A stretch of DNA of 64,000 nt from Halostella pelagica (GCA_005954745.1 CP040678.1:3100001-3164000), one strand, 5' to 3'. Shown: positions 7,821-28,300, counted from the stretch's first letter. The notes: a model not told the origin generated them from the sequence alone. Numbers and translations are program-made.

Positions 7821-9647
7821 ATGACTTACGACACCGAGGCCCTGGTCGTCGGTGGCGGGTCGACAGGAACTGGGATCGCCCGTGACCTGGCTATGCGGGG
7901 GGTAGACGTGACCCTCGTCGAAAAGGGGAACCTCACGCACGGGACGACGGGTCGGATGCACGGACTGCTCCACAGCGGCGGGCGGTACGCCGTCGCTGAC
8001 CAGGCGAGCGCGAAAGAGTGCATCGAGGAAAACCGGGTCCTTCGAGATATCGCGAGCCACTGCGTCGAGGAAACCGGCGGTCTGTTCGTCCAGCGACCGG
8101 AAGACTCGGACGAGTACTTCAGGGAGAAACTGGAGGGCTGTCGGGAGTGTGGAATTCCCGCGGAGGAACTCACCGCCGAGGAGGCCCGGGAGATGGAACC
8201 GTATCTGGCGAGTGACATCGAACGAGCGATCCGCGTTCCGGACGGCGCGGTCGACCCGTTTCGCCTGTGCGTCGCAAACGCCGTCAGCGCGGAAAACCAC
8301 GGCGCACGCGTAGAGACGCACGCGGAAGTCGTGGACCTGCTCGGCGACGAGGACCGCGTGGAAGGGGTGACGGTCCGACACGAGAGCGTCTCGCAGAGTG
8401 ACACGGATCGGGATTCGTCACGAGAGGAGCGAGCTGACGGCGACCCCGACAAGCGCGAGCATCAGGAACCCGGTAGGACCGAAGATATCCGCGCAGACTA
8501 CGTCGTCAACGCGACGGGCGCGTGGGCCGGACAGATAGGTGAGATGGCCGGCGTCGACATCGAGGTGCGCCCGTCGAAAGGCGTGATGGTCGTGATGAAC
8601 TGTCGACAAGTAGACACGGTCGTCAACCGCTGCCAGCCGAAAGGCGACGCGGACATCGTCGTCCCCCACGAGACGACGGCCATCCTGGGCACGACGGACG
8701 AGGAGGTCGACGACCCCGAGGACTACCCCGAGGAGCGGTGGGAAGTGGATCTGATGATAGACGAGTTGAAGCAACTCGTCCCTATCCTCGACGACTCCCG
8801 GACGGTCCGGTCGTTCTGGGGGGTTCGTCCGCTGTACGAACCGCCGGACGTGGGGAGCGACGACCCGACGGACATCACGCGGGACTACTTCCTGCTCGAC
8901 CACGAGGAGCGCGACGACCTGGAGGGGATGACCTCTATCGTCGGCGGGAAGTTCACCACCTACCGCATGATGGCCGAGGAGATAAGCGACCACGTCTGCG
9001 AACAGTTGGACGTCTCCGCCGAGTGCCGCACCGCAGACGTTCCGCTGCCGGGGAGCGAGGATGCGTCGGTCCTCGACGAGGGCATGGACCGCTTCGGCCT
9101 CCGTTCGCCCATCGCCCGCCGGAGCGCCCAGCGTCTCGGGTCACGTGCAGACGACGTGCTCTCGTCGGTCGACCCGAACCCGGTGGTCTGTGACTGCGAG
9201 GCCGTCACTCGCGCGGAGATACAGGACGCCATCGACGGGGCCGGAAGCGACCTCAACGCCGTCCGCATCCGAACCCGTGCGTCGATGGGCAACTGTCAGG
9301 GCGGCTTCTGCTGTCAGGGTATGGCCCACGAACTCCATCCGGAGTACGGCGAACCGACCGTCCGCAGGGCGCTGGACGAACTGTACCAGGAGCGCTGGAA
9401 AGGCGAGCGCCACGCCCTCTGGGGGGAACAGCTTTCGCAGGCGATGCTCAACTACGCGCTCCACGCTGCTACGATGAACCGCGACGAGGACCCCGCCGAG
9501 ACCGGCGGTATCGACTACACCGCGTTCGACGACGGTGTGGACGCGCCGGGTGAGACCGGCGACGAACGAGGCGTGGTGCCGGACGGGGGCAACCACGCCA
9601 ACAGTACGGGCGGCCGTACCGCCGACGAGGGTGATTATGGCGATTGA
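7821..9647 (+). CDS. gpdA: Glycerol-3-phosphate dehydrogenase subunit A
   Basis: A 608-residue FAD-dependent subunit of the GlpABC-type glycerol-3-phosphate dehydrogenase, oxidising sn-glycerol-3-phosphate to dihydroxyacetone phosphate and passing electrons toward the quinone pool. The Rossmann motif GGGSTG is at residues 11-16. A DAO-family oxidase domain follows, with an acidic Asp/Glu/Arg-rich insertion near residue 200 typical of halophiles. A C-terminal BFD-like [2Fe-2S] domain shows CDCEAVTR and GNCQGGFCC. The ATG at 7821 is chosen over an upstream in-frame GTG at 7791, which lacks family sequence. A Gly/Asp-rich tail follows the iron-sulfur domain. First gene of the gpdABC operon. Confidence 0.95.
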
Positions 9648-14465: not shown

Positions 14466-17456
14466 TCAGGGCGTCGTAGCTCTCACGAACCGGCCGTCGA
14501 GTGCGGTAGCCGACTCGTTACCGTCGCCGGAGGCACCGTCGCTGCCGGTGCCGTCGTCTCCGACCGTCGTGTTCCCGTTGTCGGTCGTCTCGTTGTCGGC
14601 GGTCTCGTTGTCGGCGGTCTGGTTGTCGCTGGTCTGGTTATCGGCGGTGTCGTTGACATCGAGGTTCTCTTCGATGCCCTCCATCTCGACGGTGACGTTG
14701 TCGCCCTCGTAGATGGCCCGTTCGGGCACGTCGGCGTTACCGATCTGGCCGGGGTTTTCGAGGTTCTGGAGGATGTGTCGGTCCCCGATCCGTTCAGCGT
14801 TGACGCCCTCCAGGCTCCCGGTGAAGACGGTGTAGTTGCCCGCCGCGCGGACGCTGGAGTTCGTGTAGCCGTCGTCCGGTCCGAGCGTCTCCTCGGTCGG
14901 ATACGGAACGGTCACCGTGAAGTCGCCGTTCTCGTCGGTTTCGACGCTCTGGTAGTAGGTGAACTGACGCTGGTCTTGCGTCCCGTTGAGTTGAACCATC
15001 GCAGTCACCGATGTCGCGTTAGAGGCGTTGACGCTGCCCTCGAGGGTCGCCCCGTCGACGCGCTCGAAGGTTTTGACGGTCGACTCTCGACGGATGTCGT
15101 AGGCACCGACATCAGGACGCTGGAGCATGTTCGCGAGGCGACCCGTGAACCGTCGGTTGATGGCCACCGGTCGCGTTGCCCCACCCTCAGTCCGCTGGGC
15201 GAGGCTCAGTATGGTCGTATCGGACCGGGTTTCGTGCACCAGCCGGTAGTGCGAGAGCTGCTGGCTGTCGTGGTAGTACATCCGCGACAGCATCGTGTTC
15301 TCGAATCGGTCGTTCATTCCGTAGAGGTTAGCCGGCTGTTGTGCCTGTCCCTCGGCTGTCTGGAACGTGATCATCCGCTCTTGCGTGCTGAGGTAGTCGC
15401 CGAACGATGGACCGGCCCAGCGCGTTATCGGGCTGAACTTGTTGCTCGCCATCTGGTCGTCGATCATCACGTACCGGGTGTCCTCCCGTGCTTCCGCTTC
15501 GCTCTGTTGTGCGATGACCTCGCGGAGTTCGTCGTTCGAGAGGTCGCTGATGTGTTCGTCGCGCTCGTCGAGCGACGGCAGCGCTTCCAGAACGAGTTCG
15601 GCGCGCGTCTCGTTCGTCGTCTGGAGGAACTCGGACGCAGGCCGCGGTCCCTGCTGGAACGGGTTGGCGTTCGGTATCCGCTCACCCTGGACGGTGATCC
15701 AGTGGCCGTAGTCCCACCACGACATCACGCCGTAGGCGCCTTCGGGATAGTCGTAGTCGTCGGTCTGCTCGTACGTCTCGTACATCTCCATCGGTTCGCC
15801 GTCGGGGTTCGCGTAGGTTCCCGGTTCGGGGGTGTTCTCCTGGAGCCAGCCGGTGCTTTCGGCCCAGTACGCGGACGAGCCCGGACCGGTCGAATTGCCG
15901 GCTTCGGCCGCGGCCGTGCTCGCTGACGAGGACGCGAGCGGTCCGACGAGGGGGACGGTTACGAGCAGGAGGACGGCGACCAGCGTCAACACCTGATACC
16001 CCTTGATGTCGGTCAGACGCTTCGCCGACGTCGGAACGTCGAGCAGGCGGAGTATCTGCCCGAACAGCCAGGCGTTCAGCAGGACGACGGAGATAGCGAG
16101 GTAGTAGTTGAACCGCTGCTGCGTCAGTGACATCAGGACGAGGAAGACGGTGAGCACGACCAGCAGGAGTTCGTCCGGGCGGTAGTCGTCGCCGGCGAGC
16201 GCGATATGCGCTGCCATCCAGAACAGACCGAACGCCGCCGTGAGATAGGTCAGTCCGTACTGGCTGATCATGAAGGAGCCGGCGTCATCGAGTGAGACCG
16301 CCTGCACCTCTCCCACGGTCCGGCCCGTGTCGCTCGACCCGAGCGCGAAAACGCGGACGACGTTATCCTGGATGAGCGAGAACGCGTCGGGAAGGATGAC
16401 GGCCATCAGAACAGCCCCAGAGAGGATGCCGCCCGCGATCACGGCCGGGTAGTAGTGGCGGGCGATGTCCCGGTCGTCGAACTCGCGGGCGAGCCACGCC
16501 ATGAACGCACAGCCGGCGGCGACGGCGATGGCGATCAGATACTGGGTCAGCGAAATCGTCGTCGTCTCGAAGCTCAGCGAGCCAGTTTTGACGACGAGCA
16601 TCGGAACGACCGTCGCGAGGCTGACGACGCCGACGAACGCGGTGTGGTCGGGGCTCCGTCCGCGGACGTAATCGAGGGTCAGCGAGACGGTGAAGAAGGC
16701 CCCGAGGATGCCGATGAAGATGATGCCTGGCGGCCAGGTCCACAGGTACAGCGCGATGGCGACGCCCGCGAGAACGCTAGCGATCGTCGGGTCGCGGAGA
16801 GCCTCCCAGTCGCGGTCCACGACGAGTTCGTACACCGGCTTTTCCTGCTGGGCGACTCGGAGGGCGCGGACAACCATGACGAGGGCGATAGAGAGGAAGA
16901 ACGCCTCGGCGATGTGGTGGTCGCCGAACCCGACGGTGCCGCGGTCCAGAATGTATCCCGGAAGGATCGCAAGCACGAAGACGCCGAACAGAGCGCCGAG
17001 GCGGCCGGCGTAGTGTTTGCCGAGGTAGTAAAGCGGGAACACAAGAAGGGTCCCGAACACCGCGGGTGCGTAGAGAAGCACCGTCCGGACGGTCTCGCCG
17101 GAGGGGTCTCCCAGGCCGACGACCAGGGCGGCGGTCGCGACTATCTGGTCGAACAGCGAACCGAACTGGCCACCGGACGTCGTGCCGTAGGGGAAGTGCG
17201 TGTACGGATCGAACGGCATCGTCCAGGGCCAGTTGTTGACCGTGTACTGGATTTCGCGGTAGTGGTAGTATGCGTCGTTACCTCTGAACAGTATCTCGCC
17301 GCCGCTGGTGAAGCGCTCGCGCGCCTGGATCCGGACCCAGAACATGAACGCCACCAGCACCGAGAGAACCGGCACGTGATACCAGTCCTCCCAGATATCG
17401 AGCACCGACCGCTCGTTGGCGGTCTCGTCCTCGACCGTTTCGGTCTCGCTACTCAT
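14466..17456 (-). CDS. aglB: Oligosaccharyltransferase AglB (STT3 family)
   Basis: A 996-residue STT3-type enzyme that moves the lipid-linked glycan onto Asn in N-x-S/T of exported proteins. The N-terminal half holds about 13 membrane segments with the catalytic acidic motifs FRGNDAYYHY and VGFGDHHIAEAF. The C-terminal soluble domain carries WWDYGHW at residues 580-586. A minus-strand TATA-like CCTATAGG about 28 bp upstream (near 17480) indicates leaderless transcription, divergent from the glycosyltransferase gene. Odd feature: near the C-terminus five 15-bp repeats encode (D)NET/NQT units, giving seven sequons within about 45 residues of the enzyme itself. Confidence 0.96.
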   Translation of the reverse strand: MSSETETVEDETANERSVLDIWEDWYHVPVLSVLVAFMFWVRIQARERFTSGGEILFRGNDAYYHYREIQYTVNNWPWTMPFDPYTHFPYGTTSGGQFGSLFDQIVATAALVVGLGDPSGETVRTVLLYAPAVFGTLLVFPLYYLGKHYAGRLGALFGVFVLAILPGYILDRGTVGFGDHHIAEAFFLSIALVMVVRALRVAQQEKPVYELVVDRDWEALRDPTIASVLAGVAIALYLWTWPPGIIFIGILGAFFTVSLTLDYVRGRSPDHTAFVGVVSLATVVPMLVVKTGSLSFETTTISLTQYLIAIAVAAGCAFMAWLAREFDDRDIARHYYPAVIAGGILSGAVLMAVILPDAFSLIQDNVVRVFALGSSDTGRTVGEVQAVSLDDAGSFMISQYGLTYLTAAFGLFWMAAHIALAGDDYRPDELLLVVLTVFLVLMSLTQQRFNYYLAISVVLLNAWLFGQILRLLDVPTSAKRLTDIKGYQVLTLVAVLLLVTVPLVGPLASSSASTAAAEAGNSTGPGSSAYWAESTGWLQENTPEPGTYANPDGEPMEMYETYEQTDDYDYPEGAYGVMSWWDYGHWITVQGERIPNANPFQQGPRPASEFLQTTNETRAELVLEALPSLDERDEHISDLSNDELREVIAQQSEAEAREDTRYVMIDDQMASNKFSPITRWAGPSFGDYLSTQERMITFQTAEGQAQQPANLYGMNDRFENTMLSRMYYHDSQQLSHYRLVHETRSDTTILSLAQRTEGGATRPVAINRRFTGRLANMLQRPDVGAYDIRRESTVKTFERVDGATLEGSVNASNATSVTAMVQLNGTQDQRQFTYYQSVETDENGDFTVTVPYPTEETLGPDDGYTNSSVRAAGNYTVFTGSLEGVNAERIGDRHILQNLENPGQIGNADVPERAIYEGDNVTVEMEGIEENLDVNDTADNQTSDNQTADNETADNETTDNGNTTVGDDGTGSDGASGDGNESATALDGRFVRATTP
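14577..14651 (-). repeat. Five 15-bp tandem repeats inside aglB encoding N-glycosylation sequons
   Basis: Units begin at 14577, 14592, 14607, 14622 and 14637, each close to GTTGTCGGCGGTCTC on the plus strand. Translated on the minus strand they give DNQTS/DNQTA/DNETA/DNETT-like pentapeptides. The repeat lies in the extracellular C-terminal domain just before a Gly/Asp/Ser-rich tail. Confidence 0.9.
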
Positions 17457-17601: not shown

Positions 17602-18519
17602 ATGAAGGTTTCAGTGGTTCTATGCACCTACTCGCTGGACGTGTACGGCCACTTCCGCGAGGCCGCCGACAGCATCCTCGACCAGACGTACGACGACGTC
17701 GAACTCGTCATCGTCGTCGACGGGACGACGAAGGTGTACGACCGTGTGCGCGAGGACTACGGCACCCGCGACGGCGTCGTCCTCCACTGCAACGACGAGA
17801 ACCTGGGATTACTGAAGAGCCGGAACAAGGGGACCGAACTCGCGTCCGGCGATATCGTCGCGTTCACTGACGACGACGCGGTTGCCGACGAGGAGTGGGT
17901 CGCTGAACTCGTCGACACTTACGAGACCCACGACGCTCTCGCGGCCGGCGGGAAGATGACGCCCGCCTGGGTCGCCGGGAAACCGTCGTTTCTCCCCAGC
18001 GAGTTCTACTGGCTGGTCGGCGTCACGCACCGTGGGTTCGCAGACGGCCCTGGCGAAGTGCGCAACACGTTCGGCGCGAACATCTCCTTTCGACGCGACG
18101 TCTTTCTCGACCTCGGCGGTTTTGACCCGAACATCGGCGGCCGGAAAGGCGACAAGAATCTCCAGGGCGGTGAGACGGAACTGGCGGCGCGTCTCCGCAG
18201 GGAGTACGGGGAGGGCGTCCGGTACAACCCGAACGCGACGGTCGCCCACAAGGTGTTCGAGTACCGGACGGACCCCGTCTGGTTGCTGAAACGCGCGTTC
18301 TGGCAGGGGTATTCGAAGCGCGCGATGGAGACGCTCGTTCCCGATTCGACCGGCGAAGAGAGCGAGTTCCTCGGCAAGTTGCTCTTCCGGTTCGTTCCGG
18401 ACCGGACGAAACGGGCCATCTCCGAACAGTCCGGGTCGCAGGCGCTCAAGGCGCTCTCGCTGCTCGTCTTCACCGGCGTCGTCGGCCTCGGCTATCTCTA
18501 CGGGACGGTGAAATGGTGA
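17602..18519 (+). CDS. aglG: AglG-like glycosyltransferase (family 2)
   Basis: A 305-residue GT2 enzyme close in style to haloarchaeal AglG, which adds glucuronic acid to a glucosyl-dolichyl-phosphate acceptor on the cytosolic face. It begins MKVSVVLCTYSLD, with the GT-A fold, the nucleotide-diphosphate motif FTDDDAVADEEW, a GGETELAARLRR acceptor/catalytic region, and one C-terminal hydrophobic segment (LSLLVFTGVVGLGYLY). The frame is open to 17416 but the ATG at 17602 gives the family N-terminus. It is divergent from aglB and overlaps the next glycosyltransferase gene by 7 bp. Exact sugar specificity is not established. Confidence 0.85.
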   Translation: MKVSVVLCTYSLDVYGHFREAADSILDQTYDDVELVIVVDGTTKVYDRVREDYGTRDGVVLHCNDENLGLLKSRNKGTELASGDIVAFTDDDAVADEEWVAELVDTYETHDALAAGGKMTPAWVAGKPSFLPSEFYWLVGVTHRGFADGPGEVRNTFGANISFRRDVFLDLGGFDPNIGGRKGDKNLQGGETELAARLRREYGEGVRYNPNATVAHKVFEYRTDPVWLLKRAFWQGYSKRAMETLVPDSTGEESEFLGKLLFRFVPDRTKRAISEQSGSQALKALSLLVFTGVVGLGYLYGTVKW

Positions 18520-19691
18520 CGAGCGATACCGCGGGCGGGGATGTCGACCCTCGCACCGACGACGAGGGGGTCTGCGTCGTCACCCACCCTCTTGCCGCCG
18601 CGGGGGAGAACGCGACGCGAACGCTGCTGGAGATCATAAGCGCCGTCACGACGGTGTCGCTGATCACGGCCGACCTTCCCCGAGACTCCGCGATCCGCGA
18701 CCGGCACGAGGTCGTCGAGATAACGCGGGAGGGTGCGGGCGACAACATCGCCGTCGCCGCCGTCCGCTTCGTTCTGAACCAACTGCGGATGTGTCGGGCT
18801 ATCGCGCGGCGGGACGAGGAGGTCGTCCTCTTCTTCGGCGCGACGTCGTACGTCCTTCCCGTCGTCGTCGCGTCGCTTCTCGGCAAGACCGTCGTCCTCG
18901 AACCCCGCGGCGACGTTCCACTGACGCTCCGCCTCAACTGGGAGGAGCGCCTCCCCTCGCCGGTCGCGCGAGCGCTGGCTGGCGTCGTGTGGACGCTCGA
19001 ACGGATCAACTACCATCTGGCTGACGCCGTTATCACGTACACGCCGTCGATGGCCGCGGAACTCGGCCTCGACGACTTCCGGGAGAAACTCCATCCGAAC
19101 GGCGCGCGCTACGTCGATACCGACGAGTTCGACGTGGACGTTCCGTACCAAACGCGCGACCGAACGGTCGGGTTCCTCGGCCGCATCGACGAGGAGAAGG
19201 GGATCCGGGAACTCGCCGCCGTCGCGCGCCGCCTGCCCGACGACGTGACGTTTCGCTTCATCGGCGACGGCGACCTCTCCGACTGGCTGGAAGCCGAACT
19301 CGCGGACGAGATCGCGCAGGGGTCGGTCGAACTCGCGGGATGGGTCGACCACGACGAGGTTCCGGCGGAACTGAACGACCTCCGCCTGCTCGTCATGCCG
19401 TCCCAGCCGACCGAGGGCTTACCGACGACTATCCTGGAGTCGCTCGCCTGCGGAACGCCGGTGTACGCGACGCCGGTGTCTGGCATTCCCGACGTGGTAC
19501 GCGACGGGGAAACCGGGTTCCTCATGACCGAACGCGACCCCGAGGCGATAGCCGACGAGATAGCGCGCGTGCTGAGCGAACCGGACCTCGTCGCGGTGAG
19601 CGGGAACTGCAGGGCGTTGACCGAAGAGAAGTACTCCTTCGAGGCCGCCGTCGAGCGGTACGCGGCGATCCTCGACGGCATCACGCGGTGA
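18513..19691 (+). CDS. GT4-family glycosyltransferase
   Basis: A 392-residue GT-B enzyme of family 4. The donor-side domain shows GRIDEEKGIRELAAVARRL, VSGIPDVVRDGETGFLM and the E-x7-E motif (EGLPTTILESLACGTPV). The acidic N-terminal 22 residues are a halophilic extension. Its start is inside the end of the AglG-like gene, so the two are coupled, and its 3' end overlaps the convergent flippase gene by 11 bp. It probably adds a later sugar of the lipid-linked glycan; donor and acceptor are unknown. Confidence 0.85.
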   Translation: MVTSDTAGGDVDPRTDDEGVCVVTHPLAAAGENATRTLLEIISAVTTVSLITADLPRDSAIRDRHEVVEITREGAGDNIAVAAVRFVLNQLRMCRAIARRDEEVVLFFGATSYVLPVVVASLLGKTVVLEPRGDVPLTLRLNWEERLPSPVARALAGVVWTLERINYHLADAVITYTPSMAAELGLDDFREKLHPNGARYVDTDEFDVDVPYQTRDRTVGFLGRIDEEKGIRELAAVARRLPDDVTFRFIGDGDLSDWLEAELADEIAQGSVELAGWVDHDEVPAELNDLRLLVMPSQPTEGLPTTILESLACGTPVYATPVSGIPDVVRDGETGFLMTERDPEAIADEIARVLSEPDLVAVSGNCRALTEEKYSFEAAVERYAAILDGITR

Positions 19692-21096
19692 CGTTCGCCG
19701 GGAGCAGCGCGACGGCCTTCTGTCGGACTCTGGTCGAGAGCACGACGAGCGTCGCCCCGTAGACGGCCCCGCCGACGAGAACGAGCGCGACGGTCGCGTA
19801 GTGCGACCCCGGAACGACGCCGGCGAGCGCGTACACCGCGCCGGTCATCACCAGACTCGCGCCGAACTGGTGTGCCATCTCACGGTAGGGAACGTCCGGC
19901 CGGCCGATGAGCGAGGTGAGAGCGAAATAGCCGAGGACGAGCGTTATCGTCGCCGAGAGCGCCGTCGCGATCGCCGCACCGTACCAGCCGAACTGCGAGA
20001 TGAGACCGACGTTGAGGACGATGTTCGAGACGACGAAGACGAGGTTGATCCGGAAGGCCACGTCGGGACGGTCGATCGCGTTGATCGCGCTGAGAAACTG
20101 CGCCCCGAACGCCGCTAAGGTGCGAGCGACGATGAGCACGAGCAGGATCGTCGCACCGCGGGTGAACTCCGGTCGGTAGATCTTGAGCAGTCGCGGGCCG
20201 ATGACCGCCGCGCCGAACAGCCCGGGGATCGCGAACACGCCGGTGAACACGAGCCCTTCGTTGATGTAGTGATGGACCCGGTCGTAGTTCTCCTCGACGG
20301 AAAGCTCGCTCAGTTCCGGGAACAACGTCTTCTGAACGGAGTTGCTCACAAGCGCCAGTGTCGAGGCGAGTGTCCACGACACTTCGTAGATACCGATGAG
20401 CGCCGACGGAACGAAGAAGGCGAGAACGATCGTGTCCATCCACCCGAACGCGCGGGTCTTGATCGTCCCGAGCCAGGAGTATCGGGCGTACTCGGCCAGA
20501 CGCCTGACGTGCTTACGCGTCGGCCGCGCGGGCCGAACCTCGAAGAGAAACACGCCGAGCACCGCGGCCGCCGCCAGCGACACCGCGTGGCCGACGAGAA
20601 GCCCCGTCAATTTGTACCCGAGCAGGATCAGCGCCACCTGAAAGCCGGTCCGGCCGACGCGCTCGACGGAGCGTAGGATACCCGTCTGGGCCACTCTCTT
20701 CTGGCCGTTGAGTGCCCCGATGACGGTTATCATCGCCACGTTGCCGACGACGAGCGCGGCGACGAGGCCGCTGACGGACGCGCCCACGTAGTCGTTGACC
20801 TGCTCGCCGAAGGCGACGATACCGACCGCGACCGTGGCCGCGACTGCGGCGTTCAGCAAGAACCCGACAGTGAGATACGACCCGCGGTCGGAGCCCTCGC
20901 TGACGCGCTTGTTGACCGCGCTACCCACGGCACTCGCCGGGATGTTGAGCCAGAACAGAAGCGCAACTGCGACGGCGTACGTCCCGAGTCCGGACGCACC
21001 GAGAACGCGGGCGATAGCGAAGGTGGCGGCGAACCCGGCGAGCGAGACGCCGACCTGCGACGCGAAGTGGATCAGCGTGGTTCTACCGAGACGCAT
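19681..21096 (-). CDS. Wzx/AglR-type polysaccharide flippase
   Basis: A 471-residue membrane protein of the MOP superfamily (polysaccharide transporter branch) with about 12-14 membrane segments, beginning MRLGRTTLIHFASQVGVSLAG. Typical features are the paired hydrophobic blocks and the central cytosolic basic loop (RPARPTRKHVRRLAEYARYS). It should move the dolichol-linked glycan to the outer face, the step assigned to AglR in Haloferax. Translation could begin upstream in frame, but the ATG at 21096 overlaps the stop of the preceding sulfatase-like gene by one base (TAATG), which fixes the start and indicates an operon. Confidence 0.85.
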   Translation of the reverse strand: MRLGRTTLIHFASQVGVSLAGFAATFAIARVLGASGLGTYAVAVALLFWLNIPASAVGSAVNKRVSEGSDRGSYLTVGFLLNAAVAATVAVGIVAFGEQVNDYVGASVSGLVAALVVGNVAMITVIGALNGQKRVAQTGILRSVERVGRTGFQVALILLGYKLTGLLVGHAVSLAAAAVLGVFLFEVRPARPTRKHVRRLAEYARYSWLGTIKTRAFGWMDTIVLAFFVPSALIGIYEVSWTLASTLALVSNSVQKTLFPELSELSVEENYDRVHHYINEGLVFTGVFAIPGLFGAAVIGPRLLKIYRPEFTRGATILLVLIVARTLAAFGAQFLSAINAIDRPDVAFRINLVFVVSNIVLNVGLISQFGWYGAAIATALSATITLVLGYFALTSLIGRPDVPYREMAHQFGASLVMTGAVYALAGVVPGSHYATVALVLVGGAVYGATLVVLSTRVRQKAVALLPANVTA

Positions 21097-22487
21097 TATT
21101 CCATGTAGCCGAGGTCTTGGAGTTGTTTTTGCATCGCGTCGGTGAGTTCTGAACCTTCGCCGGTTGCAATGAGTCGCCCATCGGTCGATAGCCACTCTGA
21201 GAGTTCGTCGTCCAGTTCAGACGCTGTGTTCGGGTGTTCAGACGTGACATCCGTGATCTCGTCGGGCAGTTTGAACAGTCGGGAGCGCCCCTCACTTTTC
21301 TCGTACCTGAACTCTCGGGTGCGGAGGCTCGTGAGCATATCGGAGTGAAACTGCGTCGTGTCGAAATCCGGGTTTCGGTCCAGATAGGGCTCGAAGTTCG
21401 CCCCCTGGCGCTGCGAGATAACCCGTTCGCGGACCGTTTGTCGCATATCGATTCCCTGTAACCCGTCGGTGGATGCGCCACCCATATCGGCGAGCGTTCG
21501 CATGAGATCGAGATGTTGAACGAGGCCGTCGGACGGATAATCGACGTCGTCGAGACCGTGAACCACCAGCGGCACGTGCGTTACCGCGTCGTTGATCACG
21601 ATGCGATGGGCGAGCATCCCCCGCTCGCCGAACAGTTCGCCGTGGTCGGCGGTGATGACGACGACGGTGTCGTCCAGATCGAGCGACTGGACGTGATCGA
21701 AGAGTCGGCCGACCATCTCGTCGGTGTACGCGATCTCTGCGTCGTACATCGCCTCGATCGCGCGCTGTTCCGTCTCCGTGAGGTCGTAGCCGTCAGCGAC
21801 TATCTCCTCCATGTCGTAGTGGACACGCATCGCGATGTCAGCCGCCTCCTCGGCGGAGATATTCAACCCGTCCGTGTATCTGTCCAGATACGGGAGCGGC
21901 GGATAGTAGGGACGGTGCGGTTCGTTGTAGTGAAGGTAGAAAAAGAACGGCTCGTCGCCGCCGAGGTCGGTGAACCACTTTTTGGCGACTTCGTTCATCA
22001 AAAACGGGGTCGCGTGTTTGGCCGTGTCGTGCGTTACTCCGGCGGAGTGGCTGCGAATGTTCAGGAAGTACTTGGCTATCGTCTCCGGACCGAGAACGTC
22101 CAGAAACGTCGAGGCGGCGAGCCACTCGAACCTGTCGAACCCTCGGTCGAGACCGGTGCCGGAACTGACGTAGGAGTTCCGGGAGAGTCCGGCCGTTGCG
22201 TATCCGGCGTCACCGAGCCGTTCGGCGACAGTATCGAGTTCCTCTGGGATCGATTCGTTGGCGATCCGTAACCCGTGGTGTGACGGGTACACGCCGGTCA
22301 GAATAGAGGCGGCGGACAGCGCCGTCGCGTTCCCCGCAGCAAAGCAGTTCGAGAGATACTCTCCGCTTTCCGAGTCCGCGATCCGCTGGAGGTTCGGCGT
22401 CGTATCGCGGTCGTACCCACCCATCGTGGTATGGTCCGCACGGACGCTGTCAAGGGTGATCCAGAGGATATTCGGAGGGGTCGCCAT
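21096..22487 (-). CDS. Alkaline-phosphatase-superfamily (sulfatase-like) enzyme with Thr at the nucleophile site
   Basis: A 463-residue cytosol-type protein with sulfatase fold: metal ligand motif ITLDSVRADH (D13), active-site helix at residues 55-65 (TALSAASILTG) and ITADHGE near the C-terminal third. Where sulfatases have Cys of C-x-P-S-R, this protein has T55, so it cannot be converted to formylglycine; Thr is the nucleophile in phosphodiesterase and phosphoalcohol-transferase relatives. No signal peptide. It ends with LQDLGYME. A TATA-like GGAAATAAC about 26-30 bp before the ATG at 22487 supports this start over 22502. It is in an operon with the flippase gene, so it may act on glycan or lipid carrier. 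Confidence 0.82.
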   Translation of the reverse strand: MATPPNILWITLDSVRADHTTMGGYDRDTTPNLQRIADSESGEYLSNCFAAGNATALSAASILTGVYPSHHGLRIANESIPEELDTVAERLGDAGYATAGLSRNSYVSSGTGLDRGFDRFEWLAASTFLDVLGPETIAKYFLNIRSHSAGVTHDTAKHATPFLMNEVAKKWFTDLGGDEPFFFYLHYNEPHRPYYPPLPYLDRYTDGLNISAEEAADIAMRVHYDMEEIVADGYDLTETEQRAIEAMYDAEIAYTDEMVGRLFDHVQSLDLDDTVVVITADHGELFGERGMLAHRIVINDAVTHVPLVVHGLDDVDYPSDGLVQHLDLMRTLADMGGASTDGLQGIDMRQTVRERVISQRQGANFEPYLDRNPDFDTTQFHSDMLTSLRTREFRYEKSEGRSRLFKLPDEITDVTSEHPNTASELDDELSEWLSTDGRLIATGEGSELTDAMQKQLQDLGYME

Positions 22488-22742
22488 CGTTACGTAGTCC
22501 ACCGGGAAGTTATTTCCATCTTTCCCTCTCAGTCGCCGTTACGGAGACGTATCGGTTCGATGAATACCGCTAGTTCAACTGTCTCGGATGACGCGTAGTA
22601 TCCAAGCCCTGTGAGATCGGGGCCGAGTTCCGTTCGAGTCGGGAAACCTATCGTTTACCGCGGGGCGGATCTGATAACAGACGGTACCTGATGAATAATG
22701 GTGAAGTAACTTACTTAATGGAGTACTGTTTACACCCGCGAA

Positions 22743-23726
22743 ATGACTGTTGTCGTACTGGGTATCGACGCTTTAGATCCCGACCTCGTGGATCCAGCCC
22801 AGCATCCTCACCTCACGCTAGAGAACTACCGCTCTATCGAAACGATCTCCAGCAGTGCCGGCGAACCGAGTACGCACGAACTGTGGCCGACGATCATCAC
22901 CGGGCTCAAACCGGCTAATCACGGATTAACGCTCGAAGATGACGGAGTCGCATGGGGTAACCCCCTTCTCGACGCCGGCAGTACTGCCGCGGACTACGTC
23001 CTTCCCGACGGGCTACAGAACCGGATCGGGGAATGGCTACTCACGAACACGGCGGCAGATGCGTTCCGGACTCCAGCGGACTACTACGAGGAAAACGGGA
23101 TCGAGACGGTGTTTGACGGACGCGACACGAAACCGATCGGGATCCCGAACTACGTCGTAGACCCCGACGAAGAAGACCGCGAACACGCGTTACGTCGGAG
23201 TCTCGGCGACCTCTTCGAGCGCGACCAGTCGGCCGTAGGCGGACACAGTTCGTCGGACGCGGACGCCTTCTACGAACAGTGTATGGAGATGGCGATGATC
23301 CGACTGGCACGAACTCGGCGGGCCCTCCGGAACGGCGAGTACGAACTCGTGTTCGGCTACACGAGCGGCCTCGACCTCATCGGTCACGTGGCCTACGACC
23401 GTCCGGACCTCCAACACCGTGCGTACGAGGAACTGGACCAGTTCGTCGGTGAACTCCGTGACGACCTCGGACCGGAAGACGAACTGCTGCTGGTGAGCGA
23501 CCACGGACTCCAGGACGGAGTACACACCCACGAGGCGATGGTCGCCGCGACGAACGAACGGCTGGTAGAGGGTGTAGAGAGCGTCACCGACGTGCGAGCG
23601 GCCATCGACGCTGAACTCTCCGCGACGGACCACGACCGGACACCACGAAGGGATATCGAAGGCCCGGCCGATACCCACGACGGAGACGAAGTCCGCGAGC
23701 AGTTAGAGAGCCTCGGCTACATGTAG
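22743..23726 (+). CDS. Alkaline-phosphatase-superfamily phosphodiesterase-like protein
   Basis: A 327-residue protein of the nucleotide pyrophosphatase/phosphodiesterase branch. It starts VVVLGIDALD (metal ligand D9), has the nucleophile region STHELWPTIITGL with T44, and later LDLIGHVAYDRP and LLVSDHGLQDG metal-binding motifs. It lacks a signal peptide. Its C-terminus is LESLGYM, matching the tails of its two neighbours. A CTTACTTAATGG promoter element about 27 bp upstream suggests a nearly leaderless transcript. It is followed after 5 bp by another sulfatase-like gene. Substrate unknown; pyrophosphate or phosphodiester bonds in sugar-nucleotide or dolichol intermediates are possible. Confidence 0.82.
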   Translation: MTVVVLGIDALDPDLVDPAQHPHLTLENYRSIETISSSAGEPSTHELWPTIITGLKPANHGLTLEDDGVAWGNPLLDAGSTAADYVLPDGLQNRIGEWLLTNTAADAFRTPADYYEENGIETVFDGRDTKPIGIPNYVVDPDEEDREHALRRSLGDLFERDQSAVGGHSSSDADAFYEQCMEMAMIRLARTRRALRNGEYELVFGYTSGLDLIGHVAYDRPDLQHRAYEELDQFVGELRDDLGPEDELLLVSDHGLQDGVHTHEAMVAATNERLVEGVESVTDVRAAIDAELSATDHDRTPRRDIEGPADTHDGDEVREQLESLGYM

Positions 23727-23731
23727 TACTT

Positions 23732-25189
23732 ATGAAACCAAACGTCCTCCTCGTCGTCCTCGACAGTGTCAGAGCCAAAAACGTCTCCGCGTACGGTCAT
23801 CACCACGAAACGACACCGTTTCTGGACCGCTTCGCAGACCGGGCGACGCGCTACGAACAAGCCCGGTCGCCCGGGGCCAAGAGTCTCACGAGTCATACGA
23901 GCCTTTTCACCGGCCTCCACGTCGAGGAACACGGCGTCACGTCGACCGACCACTCTATCGACCCTGAATACACTGTGTTCGCCGACCTCCGCGACCAGGG
24001 GTACGATACCGGTGTGTTCTCGGAGAACACCTGGATCACAGACGTCGAAGTCGGGCTGAAGGACGGCTTCGATACCGTCGTGGGCCCCCAGAACTCGCCG
24101 TTTCCGGACGTCGTCAATCCGAAGGAGTTCGTCGCGAAGGAAGGCCGCGGCCAGTACGGGGAGTATCTGAAGGCGTCACTGACGAGCGCTGCACCCGTTA
24201 AATCGTTACTGAACGGCGTCGCGATGAAGTTGGCCTGGGACCATCCCACTCTCGTACCCGACTTCCTCAAGGCGACGACGCCGGCCGACGTCTACACCGA
24301 TTTCTTCCTCGACTGGCAAGCGGAGCGCACCGGTCCGTGGGCCGCTTGCATCAACTTGATGGATGGACACATCCCGTACGAACCGCGCGACGAACACGAC
24401 CAGTGGGGCGGCGAGAAAGCGCGGGCGATCCAGAACGAGACGGAGGATCACAAGTGGGAGTTCAACGGCGGCCAGCGCCCATGGTGGCAGCGAAAGGCCG
24501 TCGAAAGCCTCTACGACGGTGCGATACGTCAAATGGACGCGGAACTGGAGCGACTTCTGAAGACGTTGGAAGAGCGAGGCGTCCTCGATGAGACGCTGGT
24601 TGTGATCACGAGCGACCACGGAGACGGGTTCGGAGAGCCGAGTTTTGTTCGGCCAAACACTCGCGTGTCGGAACACGGCGTGGCGATCCACGAAACCCTG
24701 TTCCACGTTCCGCTGTTCGTAAAGTCGCCCGGCCAGACGGAGGGACGAACCATCGAGGAACCGGCCACGCTGACGGAGTTCCCGGCAGCAGTTCGCGCGG
24801 CAGTGGACGGAACGTACCGTGACGGTGACGAGTTCGTTCCGGACGGACCCGTGCTGGCGTCGGCGGCGGGACTTACCGAACCCCTGAAAGAACGTGCGAG
24901 TGAGTACGTCGACGACCTCACACCGTACACGGCACGGTCGAAAGCCGTGTACGAGACACACGAGAACGAGGTTCGAAAGCACGTCACGTGGCGCGACCAG
25001 TCGGCGACCGTCGGCATCCGAGACGCACAGACGGTGTATCTCTCGTCCCGAAACGACTCGGCATCGGGAACGGCAGTCGAAGCGGCGTTCGACGGTATCG
25101 ACGATGCCGGCGTCAAAGCGGACGCCGGCGGCGTCGAGGAGGTAGACGAGACGACGTATCAACGCTTGGAGGACCTCGGCTACGTGTAG
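23732..25189 (+). CDS. Sulfatase-like alkaline-phosphatase-superfamily enzyme with Ser at the nucleophile site
   Basis: A 485-residue protein beginning MKPNVLLVVLDSVRAKN (metal ligand D11). The active-site segment is S51-L-T-S54-H55 followed by TSLFTG, where sulfatases read C-x-P-S-R; Ser replaces the formylglycine Cys, and His replaces Arg. The second metal site is VITSDHGDGFGE. No signal peptide is evident. The C-terminus is LEDLGYV. It lies 5 bp after the phosphodiesterase-like gene and 59 bp before aglF. Codon use looks less GC-rich than in aglM, so the sulfatase-like trio may have been inserted into the agl locus. Either an unusual Ser-type sulfatase or a phosphatase/transferase. Confidence 0.82.
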   Translation: MKPNVLLVVLDSVRAKNVSAYGHHHETTPFLDRFADRATRYEQARSPGAKSLTSHTSLFTGLHVEEHGVTSTDHSIDPEYTVFADLRDQGYDTGVFSENTWITDVEVGLKDGFDTVVGPQNSPFPDVVNPKEFVAKEGRGQYGEYLKASLTSAAPVKSLLNGVAMKLAWDHPTLVPDFLKATTPADVYTDFFLDWQAERTGPWAACINLMDGHIPYEPRDEHDQWGGEKARAIQNETEDHKWEFNGGQRPWWQRKAVESLYDGAIRQMDAELERLLKTLEERGVLDETLVVITSDHGDGFGEPSFVRPNTRVSEHGVAIHETLFHVPLFVKSPGQTEGRTIEEPATLTEFPAAVRAAVDGTYRDGDEFVPDGPVLASAAGLTEPLKERASEYVDDLTPYTARSKAVYETHENEVRKHVTWRDQSATVGIRDAQTVYLSSRNDSASGTAVEAAFDGIDDAGVKADAGGVEEVDETTYQRLEDLGYV

Positions 25190-25248: not shown

Positions 25249-25977
25249 ATGCAAGCAGTCATCCTCGCTGCGGGCAAAGGAACCCGCCTCCGCCCGCTCA
25301 CCGAAGACAAACCGAAAGTCCTCGTCGAAGTCGACGGAAAGCCGCTCATCGAGGACGTGTTCGACAACCTGGTCGACATCGGCATCGACGAGTTCGTCGT
25401 CGTCGTCGGCTACAAGAAAGAGAAGATCATCGAGCGCTACGACGACGAGTACCGCGGCGTCCCGATCACCTACGCTCACCAGCGCGAACAGTTGGGGCTG
25501 GCGCACGCGCTCCTCCAGGCCGAACCCCACGTCGACGACGACTTCGTGCTGATGCTCGGCGACAACATCTTCCGGGCGAACCTCGGCGACGTGATCCGCC
25601 GTCAGCAGGAGGACCGCGCGGACGCCGGCTTCCTCGTCGAGGAGGTACCGATAGAGGAGGCGTCGCGGTACGGCGTCTGCGACACGAACGAGTACGGCGA
25701 GATCGTCGAACTGATCGAGAAACCGGACGACCCGCCGTCGAACCTCGTGATGACCGGGTTCTACTCGTTCACGCCGGCGATATTCCACGCCTGTCATCTG
25801 GTCCAGCCGAGCGACCGCGGCGAGTACGAACTCCCGGACGCCGTCGACCTCCTCATTCAATCCGGGCGGACTATCGACGCGATCAGGATGGACGGGTGGC
25901 GGATCGACGTCGGCTACCCCGAGGACCGCGACGAGGCGGAGCGTCGATTGGACGAGACAGAGGCCGCGGATCACTGA
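25249..25977 (+). CDS. aglF: Glucose-1-phosphate nucleotidyltransferase AglF
   Basis: A 242-residue sugar-phosphate nucleotidyltransferase with the signature AAGKGTRLRPLTEDKPK at the N-terminus, a conserved LMLGDNIF metal-binding aspartate and ELIEKPDDPPSN. Haloarchaeal AglF joins UTP to glucose-1-phosphate, supplying UDP-glucose for oxidation by AglM. It has no left-handed beta-helix C-terminal domain, in line with the short AglF/RfbA-like form. It opens a run of three sugar-nucleotide genes (aglF, SDR, aglM). Confidence 0.9.
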   Translation: MQAVILAAGKGTRLRPLTEDKPKVLVEVDGKPLIEDVFDNLVDIGIDEFVVVVGYKKEKIIERYDDEYRGVPITYAHQREQLGLAHALLQAEPHVDDDFVLMLGDNIFRANLGDVIRRQQEDRADAGFLVEEVPIEEASRYGVCDTNEYGEIVELIEKPDDPPSNLVMTGFYSFTPAIFHACHLVQPSDRGEYELPDAVDLLIQSGRTIDAIRMDGWRIDVGYPEDRDEAERRLDETEAADH

Positions 25978-26036: not shown

Positions 26037-27020
26037 ATGAACGTCCTCGTTACCGGTGGCGCGGGCTTTATCGGCTCGCACATCGCCGAACGACTCCTCC
26101 GTGACGGGCACCGCGTGACGGTGCTCGACAACATGGACCCGTACTACGACCTGGGGATCAAAGAACGCAACGTCGAACGCTGCCGTGACGCCGGTGACGA
26201 CCGCTTCGAGTTCGTCGAGGGGTCGATCACTGACGAGGGGTTAGTTCGCGACGTGATCGCTGGCGACGACATCGAGTTCGTCTACCACGAGGCGGCGAAA
26301 GCCGGCGTTCGGACGAGCGTCGAGAACCCGCAGGCGTACAACGAGAACAACGTCGGGGGCCTCCTGAACCTCCTCGAAGCGGCGGACGACCACGGCGTGA
26401 CGCGACTCGTCAACGCCTCCTCCTCCTCCGTGTACGGCAAGGACGACTATCTGCCGTACGACGAGGAGCATCCAAACTACCCGCAGAGCCCTTACGCGAT
26501 CACGAAGCTGAGTTCCGAGCACTACTGTCGCGTGTGGGACAACCTCCACGATATTTCGACGGTGAGCCTGCGCCACTTCACCGTCTACGGCCCGCGGATG
26601 CGGCCGAACATGGCGATCACGAACTTCACGACCCGATGTCTCAACGGCGAACCGCCGGTGATCTACGGCGACGGTCAGCAGACGCGCGACTTCACGTACA
26701 TCTCCGACATCGTCGACGCCAGCGTCGCGTTGCTCGATACCGACGCCGCCGACGGCGAGGAAATCAACGTTGGCTCGTCGGGCAACATCACGATCCAGGA
26801 ACTCGCCGAACACATCATCGCGGAGACGGGCGCGGACGGCGACATCGAGTACACCGACGCCAACGAGGCCGACGCACGCCACACGCACGCCAACGTGTCG
26901 AAAGCGGCGGAGTTGCTTGACTACGAACCGCAGGTGAGTATCAGGGAGGGGGTCTCCCGGTTCGTCGACTGGTATCGGGAGAACCGCGAGTGGTACGAAC
27001 CGCTGGTGATCAACTCGTGA
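26037..27020 (+). CDS. NAD-dependent sugar-nucleotide epimerase/dehydratase (extended SDR)
   Basis: A 327-residue extended short-chain dehydrogenase. The Rossmann motif is GGAGFIGSH near residue 7 and the catalytic pair is Y153-x3-K157 (PYAITK) with an upstream Ser-rich NASSSSVYG. The substrate region includes RHFTVYGPRMRPNMAI and GDGQQTRDFTYI, typical of UDP-glucose or UDP-glucuronate 4-epimerases and related dehydratases. The start ATG at 26037 gives the family N-terminus MNVLVTGGAGF. Its last four bases overlap the GTG start of aglM. It probably interconverts UDP-hexuronic or UDP-hexose donors for the N-glycan; the exact reaction is not fixed by sequence alone. Confidence 0.88.
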   Translation: MNVLVTGGAGFIGSHIAERLLRDGHRVTVLDNMDPYYDLGIKERNVERCRDAGDDRFEFVEGSITDEGLVRDVIAGDDIEFVYHEAAKAGVRTSVENPQAYNENNVGGLLNLLEAADDHGVTRLVNASSSSVYGKDDYLPYDEEHPNYPQSPYAITKLSSEHYCRVWDNLHDISTVSLRHFTVYGPRMRPNMAITNFTTRCLNGEPPVIYGDGQQTRDFTYISDIVDASVALLDTDAADGEEINVGSSGNITIQELAEHIIAETGADGDIEYTDANEADARHTHANVSKAAELLDYEPQVSIREGVSRFVDWYRENREWYEPLVINS

Positions 27021-28300
27021 ACGTCTCTATCGTCGGAAGCGGCTACGTCGGCACGACCGTCGCGGCCTGTCTCGCCGACCTCGGTCACGAGGTCGTCAAC
27101 GTCGACATCGACGAGGACGTCGTCGCGTCGATCAACGACGGCGACGCGCCGATCCACGAGGACGGCCTCCAGGAACGGATCGAACGGAACGCGGGCGGTC
27201 GCCTCCGCGCGACCACCGACTACGCCGCGGCCGCAGAGACGGACCTCACGATGCTGTGTCTGCCGACGCCGTCGGAGGCGGACGGCAGCATCGACCTCGC
27301 AGTCATGGAGGCCGGCGCGGAGGCGCTCGGCAACGCGCTCGCCGAGAAGGACGGCCGTCACGCCGTCGTCACGAAAAGCACCGTCGTCCCCGGCACTACG
27401 GACGACGTGGTCGGCCCCGCCGTCGCCGAGGCATCGGGCAAGACCGTCGGCGACGACCTCGGCCTCGGGATGAACCCTGAGTTCCTCCGGATGAGCACGG
27501 CCGTCGAGGACTTCCTCCACCCCGACAAGATCGTCGTCGGAACTGAACAGCCGTGGGTCCGGGACCGCCTCCACGAACTCTACGCCGACCTCCGGGAGGA
27601 GACGGCCGTCGTCGACACCGGCCTGCGCGAGGCCGAGATGATCAAGTACGCCAACAACACGATGCTGGCGTCGAAGGTGTCGCTGGTCAACGAACTCGGC
27701 AACGTCTGCAAGGAACTGGATGTCGACGCATACGAGGTGTTCGACGCCGTCGGCCTCGACGACCGCATCTCCGACCAGTTCCTGCGCTCAGGGCTCGGCT
27801 GGGGCGGCTCGTGCTTCCCGAAGGACGTCGACGCCGTCCGCGCGGTCGCCCGCGAACAGGGGTACGAACCCGAACTGCTGAACGCCGTCGTCGACGTGAA
27901 CGACCTGCAGCCCCGCCGGATGGTCGACCTCCTCGCGGACCACGTCGACCCCGAGGGCGCACGCGTCGCCGTCCTTGGAGTCGCGTTCAAACCCGGCACG
28001 GACGACGTTCGGGGGTCGCGCGCGATGGACCTCATCGGTGTCCTTCGGGACCGCGGCGCGGAGGTCGTCGCGTACGACCCCGTCGCGACCGAGAACGCGC
28101 GGGAGAAATACCCCGACGTGCGCTACGCCGACTCCGCCGAGGACGCGCTGGCCGACGCCGACGCCGCCATGGTCGCGACCGACTGGCCCGAGTTCGACGA
28201 GCTCGAGTTCTCGGCGATGGCCCGCTCGGTACTGATCGACGGCCGCCGGATCGACGTGGACACGGATGCGCTTGACGTGTACGAGGGATTGACCTGGTAG
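27017..28300 (+). CDS. aglM: UDP-glucose 6-dehydrogenase AglM
   Basis: A 427-residue UDP-sugar dehydrogenase making UDP-glucuronate from UDP-glucose with two NAD+. Motifs: N-terminal Rossmann GSGYVGTTVAACLADLGH, MNPEFLRMSTAVEDF, the catalytic cysteine C266 in WGGSCFPKDVDAV, and GVAFKPGTDDVRGSR in the C-terminal domain. The start is a GTG at 27017 overlapping the upstream SDR stop (GTGA). Together with AglF it supplies the donor used by AglG-type glucuronosyltransferases. Confidence 0.95.
   Translation: MNVSIVGSGYVGTTVAACLADLGHEVVNVDIDEDVVASINDGDAPIHEDGLQERIERNAGGRLRATTDYAAAAETDLTMLCLPTPSEADGSIDLAVMEAGAEALGNALAEKDGRHAVVTKSTVVPGTTDDVVGPAVAEASGKTVGDDLGLGMNPEFLRMSTAVEDFLHPDKIVVGTEQPWVRDRLHELYADLREETAVVDTGLREAEMIKYANNTMLASKVSLVNELGNVCKELDVDAYEVFDAVGLDDRISDQFLRSGLGWGGSCFPKDVDAVRAVAREQGYEPELLNAVVDVNDLQPRRMVDLLADHVDPEGARVAVLGVAFKPGTDDVRGSRAMDLIGVLRDRGAEVVAYDPVATENAREKYPDVRYADSAEDALADADAAMVATDWPEFDELEFSAMARSVLIDGRRIDVDTDALDVYEGLTW

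Follow-up and report, generated by a model that had tools for sequence, protein, structure and literature searches.

The window, the 64,000-nucleotide stretch analyzed here, comes from a haloarchaeal genome of 3.94 Mb (G000, C1:3100001-3164000). Between a flippase gene and aglF it carries three open reading frames of the alkaline phosphatase (AP) superfamily, which we call AP1, AP2 and AP3 and which lie where a sequence-only reading of this DNA had placed them. The genes of the region are as follows.

14466-17456, minus strand: AglB oligosaccharyltransferase (TIGR04154, 803 bits, cut-off 450)
17602-18519, plus strand: AglG, glucosyl-dolichyl-phosphate glucuronosyltransferase (NF041394, 524.8 bits, cut-off 440)
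18513-19691, plus strand: GT4 glycosyltransferase (domain match), a constant neighbor of AP2
19681-21096, minus strand: Wzx-type polysaccharide flippase (PF01943), overlapping the end of AP1
21099-22487, minus strand: AP1, 463 aa from ATG, PF00884-type, Thr55 at the nucleophile position, VNG1063H family
22743-23726, plus strand: AP2, 327 aa, PF01663 (NPP-type), predicted two-metal site
23732-25189, plus strand: AP3, 485 aa, PF00884-type, Ser51 nucleophile, family sister to Agl31
25249-25977, plus strand: AglF, UTP-glucose-1-phosphate uridylyltransferase (NF041313, 442 bits, cut-off 400)
26037-27020, plus strand: SDR-family nucleotide-sugar epimerase/dehydratase (profile matches)
27017-28300, plus strand: UDP-sugar 6-dehydrogenase (AglM-like), from sequence and synteny, with an inferred domain assignment

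Because AglB, AglG and AglF all score above their NCBIfam cut-offs, we take this region to be an N-glycosylation locus that also holds genes to supply uronic acid, and the AglM-like dehydrogenase implies a glycan that contains uronic acid. The earlier placement of the trio in such a locus, among aglB, aglG, the flippase gene and aglF, is thus confirmed by profiles, as is the assignment of all three proteins to the AP superfamily: AP1 and AP3 match PF00884 (E 2e-40 and 3e-40, respectively) and AP2 matches PF01663 (E 1e-12; 48.7 bits against a cut-off of 23). Hydropathy suggests neither a signal peptide nor a transmembrane helix in any of the three, with a maximum over 19 residues of only 0.9-1.3, in line with the earlier claim that signal peptides are absent. 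AP1 and AP3 contain no hydrophobic segment and their reading frames start at the catalytic domain; by this measure the trio is probably cytosolic and soluble. The stop codon of AP1 overlaps the start codon of the flippase gene, and the two genes adjoin or overlap in six other genomes as well; translational coupling between them is likely. AP3 starts 5 bp after AP2, a gap that makes co-transcription of this pair probable.

Thr55 of AP1, Thr44 of AP2 and Ser51 of AP3 occupy a single alignment column together with the Ser/Thr residues of Agl30, Agl31 and VNG1063H from Halobacterium salinarum, so that the replacement of the sulfatase cysteine described in the sequence-only reading holds in a common alignment. 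Thr55 is counted from the ATG at 22487 and corresponds to Thr60 when AP1 is read from the GTG start of the annotated frame (21096-22502). At the position of the formylglycine motif the three proteins read TALSA, THELW and SLTSH, and the C/S-x-P/A-x-R maturation motif is absent from all of them. FGE (PF03781) is likewise absent from the window genome and is present in 16 of the 147 genomes of the order. On the absence of both the motif and FGE, the maturase covered by the search, we reject an identity as formylglycine sulfatases, as had been argued before. Elsewhere in the window genome, another AP protein (G000:C1:342041-343114, L119) carries a canonical C-x-P-x-R motif (CMPAR), though the genome lacks FGE (PF03781).

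The predicted site of AP3 consists of Ser51 with D11, H55, H213, D295, H296 and H325. Positions S51, S54, H55, S57, H213, D295, H296 and H325 (AP3 numbering) are invariant in 20 sequences including Agl31, and D11 together with these eight is common to AP3 and Agl31. Of the 35 AP3-family members, 33 have Ser as nucleophile and all 35 have His at +4. The AP1 family has Thr in 28 of 34 members and Ser in the other 6 of 34, the AP2 family has Thr throughout (27/27), and Agl30-like proteins have Ser in 16 of 17. In AP2, residues D9, T44, D211, H215, D253, H254 and H261 make up a full predicted two-metal site of the NPP type and are invariant in 17 sequences. The active-site pattern of the trio, with its predicted metal count, fits either Ser/Thr transferases or phosphodiesterases.

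A direct precedent, missed in the sequence-only reading, comes from a 2025 study of three AP-superfamily proteins of the H. salinarum aglB locus (PMC11980604). By genetic evidence, N-glycan sulfation in that organism requires Agl30 and Agl31: their deletions remove sulfate from the N-glycan, and their expression in Haloferax adds it. Deletion of VNG1063H, the third protein, caused no sulfation defect and changed nothing that was measured. The evidence for the sulfotransferase activity of Agl30 and Agl31 consists of gene deletion, expression and mass spectrometry; NMR data to which the same paper refers support the sulfate of the native glycan, and the text of that paper mentions neither a sulfate donor nor PAPS (PMC11980604). 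An S-layer peptide given in that study led us to the H. salinarum locus; the named record is H. salinarum DSM 3754 (L124). Genes were matched to VNG numbers by their order and protein type rather than by sequence from the paper, and the order VNG1063H, agl27, agl28, Agl31, Agl30, agl25 is consistent with the gene numbers given there.

Careful maximum-likelihood analysis of 62 proteins makes the AP3 family the sister of Agl31 and a paralog from the window genome (support 97/89), so that the AP3 family and Agl31 have a common ancestry apart from the other AP families of haloarchaea; a quick tree of 104 rows agrees, with a support of 89 for the grouping of the AP3 family and Agl31. Like AP3, Agl31 (VNG1057C), a soluble N-glycan sulfotransferase (PMC11980604), is a PF00884-type protein with an S-x-x-S-H-x-S motif encoded in an aglB locus. 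The two are only 28% identical (E 6e-18), however, and fall in separate clades, and elsewhere in the window genome there is a closer relative of Agl31, G000:C3:82056-83438, at about 34-36% identity. AP1 and VNG1063H form one clade (100/100), are 36% identical over their full length (E 3e-88) and share a Thr nucleophile and the same type of locus, although VNG1063H adjoins agl27 whereas AP1 is coupled to the flippase gene. Agl30 (VNG1056C), a membrane-associated sulfotransferase of IdoA, belongs to the same superfamily as the trio and has its Ser in the same column, but it is much shorter, has an N-terminal hydrophobic segment and aligns with the trio in the superfamily core only; no Agl30-like gene is present in the window locus.

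AP1 and AP3 are homologous over their full length (hhalign E 7e-54) and form separate, well-supported clades. For AP2 and AP3, hhalign finds the superfamily core only (probability 30%), which leaves a direct relation between them unsupported. AP2 is a separate two-metal protein of the NPP type, as judged from its profile and predicted site, that travels with AP1 and AP3: it combines a match to the type I phosphodiesterase/nucleotide pyrophosphatase profile (PF01663) with all seven metal-site positions. Unlike an NPP of general metabolism, it sits in glycosylation loci and has no relative in the PDB by sequence, a profile search returning no match. Predicted structures of AP2 (from a single sequence, pLDDT 41.5) and AP3 (from four sequences, pLDDT 43.4) were both too low in confidence for use.

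The association with glycosylation genes recurs in other genomes. Among 39 further loci, the window locus excluded, glycosylation genes accompany 17 of the 19 AP3-family and 17 of the 20 AP1-family members, and none stand at the two loci of a widespread housekeeping AP gene that served as controls. These counts are lower bounds, from loci chosen by BLAST queries taken mostly from the window. Either aglB or aglG is present in 12 of the 19 further AP3-family loci, and an Agl30-like gene in 9 of the 19 as well as with several AP1 and AP2 loci. Because of this linkage, and because AP1 is coupled to the flippase, we assign the trio to glycan assembly. Close orthologs of AP2 (at least 62% identity) are found in only 13 of the 147 genomes, its own included; in all 13 of these loci the ortholog of the window GT4 gene lies within 10 kb of AP2, and in 12 of the 13 there is at least one other AP gene. 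When distant relatives are included, AP2 is still patchy (29/147 genomes). The full trio is found again in G006 and G075, AP1 with AP2 in G083, G087 and G086, and AP2 with AP3 in G131, G090, G020 and G125. In G075 (L092), a TnpB-like transposon gene (7861-9090) stands between AP3 and AP2 of an otherwise complete trio.

The earlier impression that the trio is less GC-rich than its neighbors reflects a real but modest dip: GC content is 60.0% for AP1, 61.7% for AP2 and 62.1% for AP3 against a gene mean of 65.1 ± 3.0, and GC3 is 0.76, 0.73 and 0.77, respectively, against a mean of 0.83 ± 0.04 and 0.86-0.91 in the flanks. Of the insertion proposed on this basis, the contrast in composition fits a mosaic locus, but a recent insertion of one three-gene block is weakened by the complete trios of two further genomes, one of them congeneric, by the AP1-AP2 or AP2-AP3 pairs elsewhere and by the AP and flippase genes of several relatives, whose GC3 is also lower than that of aglB/aglF, though less markedly. 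The matching L-x-x-L-G-Y C-termini are likewise real but not specific to the trio, since an LGY-type tail ([LMF]GY) ends 152 of the 161 haloarchaeal AP proteins in the fetched loci; we therefore reject the common C-terminus as a tie among the three. The tail is common to PF00884- and PF01663-type proteins that otherwise barely align.

We read the trio as a glycan-decorating module in which AP3, and probably AP1, would transfer sulfate onto a lipid-linked, uronate-rich glycan, and we put the probability of this reading at roughly 0.52. AP3, and probably AP1, would be cytosolic transferases with a Ser/Thr nucleophile, of the same broad type as Agl31. The uronic-acid-rich oligosaccharide would receive the sulfuryl group on its hydroxyls at the stage when dolichyl phosphate carries it, ahead of the steps of the flippase and AglB. 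Metal-bound Ser51 of AP3 (held with D11, D295 and H296) or Thr55 of AP1 would attack an activated sulfate donor to give a sulfo-enzyme, from which a sugar hydroxyl would accept the group. AP2, as an NPP-type two-metal partner, may act on a second position or clear a nucleotide by-product, the least certain of the three roles. Sulfatases with Ser in place of formylglycine keep the sulfate on the enzyme, and it is this behavior, together with the fold, that leads us to propose a sulfo-Ser/Thr intermediate; the substitution would suit a transferase because a sulfo-Ser ester escapes the hemiacetal elimination used by sulfatases. The transfer of sulfate by AP3 and AP1, the direction of the reaction, its donor and the role of AP2 are inferences; the following observations favor the reading as a whole. 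The AP3 family and Agl31 form one clade and have the nucleophilic Ser and the +4 His in common, and deletion or expression of Agl31 and Agl30 changes N-glycan sulfate (PMC11980604). AP1 groups with VNG1063H (100/100) from an H. salinarum locus identified by name, and AP3-family genes keep company with aglB/aglG (12/19) and Agl30-like genes (9/19). The formylglycine route is unseen, with FGE and the motif both absent, and P-loop sulfotransferases are nearly absent from the order. Counted against sulfate transfer are the silent deletion of the AP1 relative VNG1063H, the low identity of AP3 to Agl31, since two sister families need not transfer the same group, a predicted site (Ser/Thr with D, D, H and extra His) that also fits phosphoethanolamine and phosphoglycerol transferases, and the missing ATP sulfurylase and APS kinase, which leave no donor that can be named.

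ATP sulfurylase (PF01747) is found in 3 of the 147 genomes of the order and is absent from both the window genome and H. salinarum, and CysD has no match above the cut-off in any of the 147 genomes, these two included. Full-length, strong matches to APS kinase (PF01583) occur in 8 of the 147 genomes; the remaining matches, those of H. salinarum and the window genome among them, are weak at E 1e-7 to 1e-3, cover 50-residue P-loop stretches for the most part and are read as probably other ATPases, so that neither genome has a full-length APS kinase by this profile. P-loop sulfotransferases (PF13469, PF00685) are present in 7 of the 147 genomes, all among the eight with a strong APS kinase, the nearest copy lying 0.4-1.5 kb from the kinase gene; neither of these two families is represented in the window genome or H. 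salinarum. As far as PF01747, CysD, PF01583, PF13469 and PF00685 go, neither genome thus holds the gene set for PAPS-dependent sulfation, and the library searched yielded no literature on the sulfate donor in haloarchaea. With almost no P-loop sulfotransferases in the order, sulfation as in H. salinarum needs another type of enzyme. The glycans of H. salinarum are sulfated, yet in the families searched this organism, like the window genome, is without an ATP sulfurylase, a full-length APS kinase and a P-loop sulfotransferase: either there is an unrecognized haloarchaeal route to PAPS/APS, or the AP-type enzymes use another donor. A tentative extension, which we consider rather improbable, is a class of haloarchaeal glycan sulfotransferases unrelated to the P-loop PAPS enzymes, with an AP fold, a Ser/Thr nucleophile, a covalent sulfo-enzyme and a donor other than PAPS from the known pathway, of which AP3, AP1 and perhaps AP2 would be members. 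The trio itself is a real module that adds a case to what was published in 2025 and is not a new kind; the missing sulfate donor is the main reason for interest in it. In one of the genomes with an APS kinase (L205, G040:C78, 7435-11740), a protein that by eye fuses this domain to an HxGH nucleotidyltransferase-like domain is encoded among genes that, likewise by eye, resemble those of a P-loop sulfotransferase, a DDAH/amidinotransferase and ArgG, a cluster that looks like small-molecule biosynthesis rather than glycan sulfation.

Sulfate and phosphate both shift a glycan by 80 Da and differ by only 9.5 mDa; because of this, and because the sites are alike, transfer of a phospho group is the main rival to transfer of sulfate. 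AP1 and AP3 would then be LtaS/EptA-like enzymes that place a phosphoethanolamine, phosphoglycerol or other phosphate-bearing group on the lipid-linked glycan through a Thr/Ser intermediate, which we consider unlikely. LtaS and EptA are themselves transferases with a Thr nucleophile and a D/E-T-D-H metal site, and AP1 and AP3 share with them the Thr/Ser nucleophile, the D/E, D and H ligands and two further His. A PDB profile search with the AP3 family returns EptA-family chains among its matches and AP1 matches EptA/MCR profiles weakly, but all EptA-type profile matches fall far under their cut-offs. Moreover, LtaS and EptA are membrane-anchored, extracytoplasmic and use phospholipid donors, whereas AP1 and AP3 have neither a membrane domain nor an exported form. 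Phylogeny places the AP3 family beside a sulfation enzyme, the motif sets the trio apart from formylglycine sulfatases, and the predicted site would also suit a Ser/Thr enzyme of the EptA/LtaS type. The nearest relatives studied by experiment, Agl30 and Agl31, are required for sulfation and AP3 belongs to the sister clade of Agl31, and phospho-group modification, formerly the leading idea, gives way on these grounds. Hydrolysis of dolichyl pyrophosphate, suggested in the same place, would have no obvious substrate, as the N-glycans of Halobacterium and Haloferax are carried on dolichyl monophosphate (PMC11980604, PMC3871713).

A division of labor in which only AP3 transfers sulfate, while AP1 does something else to this glycan or its carrier, is a serious possibility at somewhat longer odds than an even chance, and it overlaps with our preferred reading rather than excluding it. 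AP1 might then remove esters, proofread before the flipping step or make a modification that depends on conditions. The coupling of AP1 to the flippase here and in six other genomes, the separate clades of AP1 and AP3 and the unchanged sulfation of the S-layer glycan after deletion of VNG1063H (PMC11980604) all favor it, but AP1 has the fold of AP3 over its full length as well as its site, and a knockout that is silent in one growth condition is compatible with sulfation elsewhere. Much less probable is that the proteins are cytosolic hydrolases of general metabolism, acting as nucleotide pyrophosphatases or in the scavenging of sulfate or phosphate esters, and are in the locus by accident. 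AP2 is indeed an NPP-type PF01663 protein, and annotation pipelines name such proteins phosphodiesterases or sulfatases; the linkage to glycosylation over many genera, set against none at the two housekeeping control loci, and the patchy occurrence of AP2 even with distant relatives counted speak against this reading. As for the clustering with general-metabolism nucleotide pyrophosphatases that was to refute the original proposal, AP2 resembles an NPP but hardly looks like an enzyme of general metabolism, its close orthologs being confined to 13 genomes and always near the same glycosyltransferase. That the proteins are formylglycine sulfatases whose Ser is converted by an anaerobic radical-SAM maturase is extremely improbable. 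The Ser of AP3 is a residue that such maturases can convert, but their motif needs P or A at +2 and R at +4, where AP3 has T and H, the latter fixed throughout its family (35/35); the Thr of AP1 and AP2 is not convertible, and the window genome has no FGE, the maturase within the search.

Annotations name the AP-superfamily proteins of archaeal N-glycosylation loci sulfatases or phosphodiesterases; the family of AP3 is placed here as sister to an enzyme whose part in sulfation has genetic proof. Haloarchaeal glycan loci commonly, if variably, include AP-superfamily genes. The window genome has two further glycan loci that bear them, G000:C3:80000-99900 (L118), with the Agl31 relative of 34-36% identity, and G000:C1:2768000-2787900 (L108), where an AP2 paralog, a methyltransferase gene, a GT2 gene and an Agl30-like gene stand in a row. 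Two neighbors of AP2 paralogs (c24 and c30) were considered as sulfate-activation genes and are read, on sequence, as a putative methyltransferase and a putative glycosyltransferase. In a second type of glycan locus (L107, L114-L116, L186-L195), AP1 paralogs adjoin a family of proteins of about 600 aa, one member of which was scanned and matches no Pfam or NCBIfam profile.
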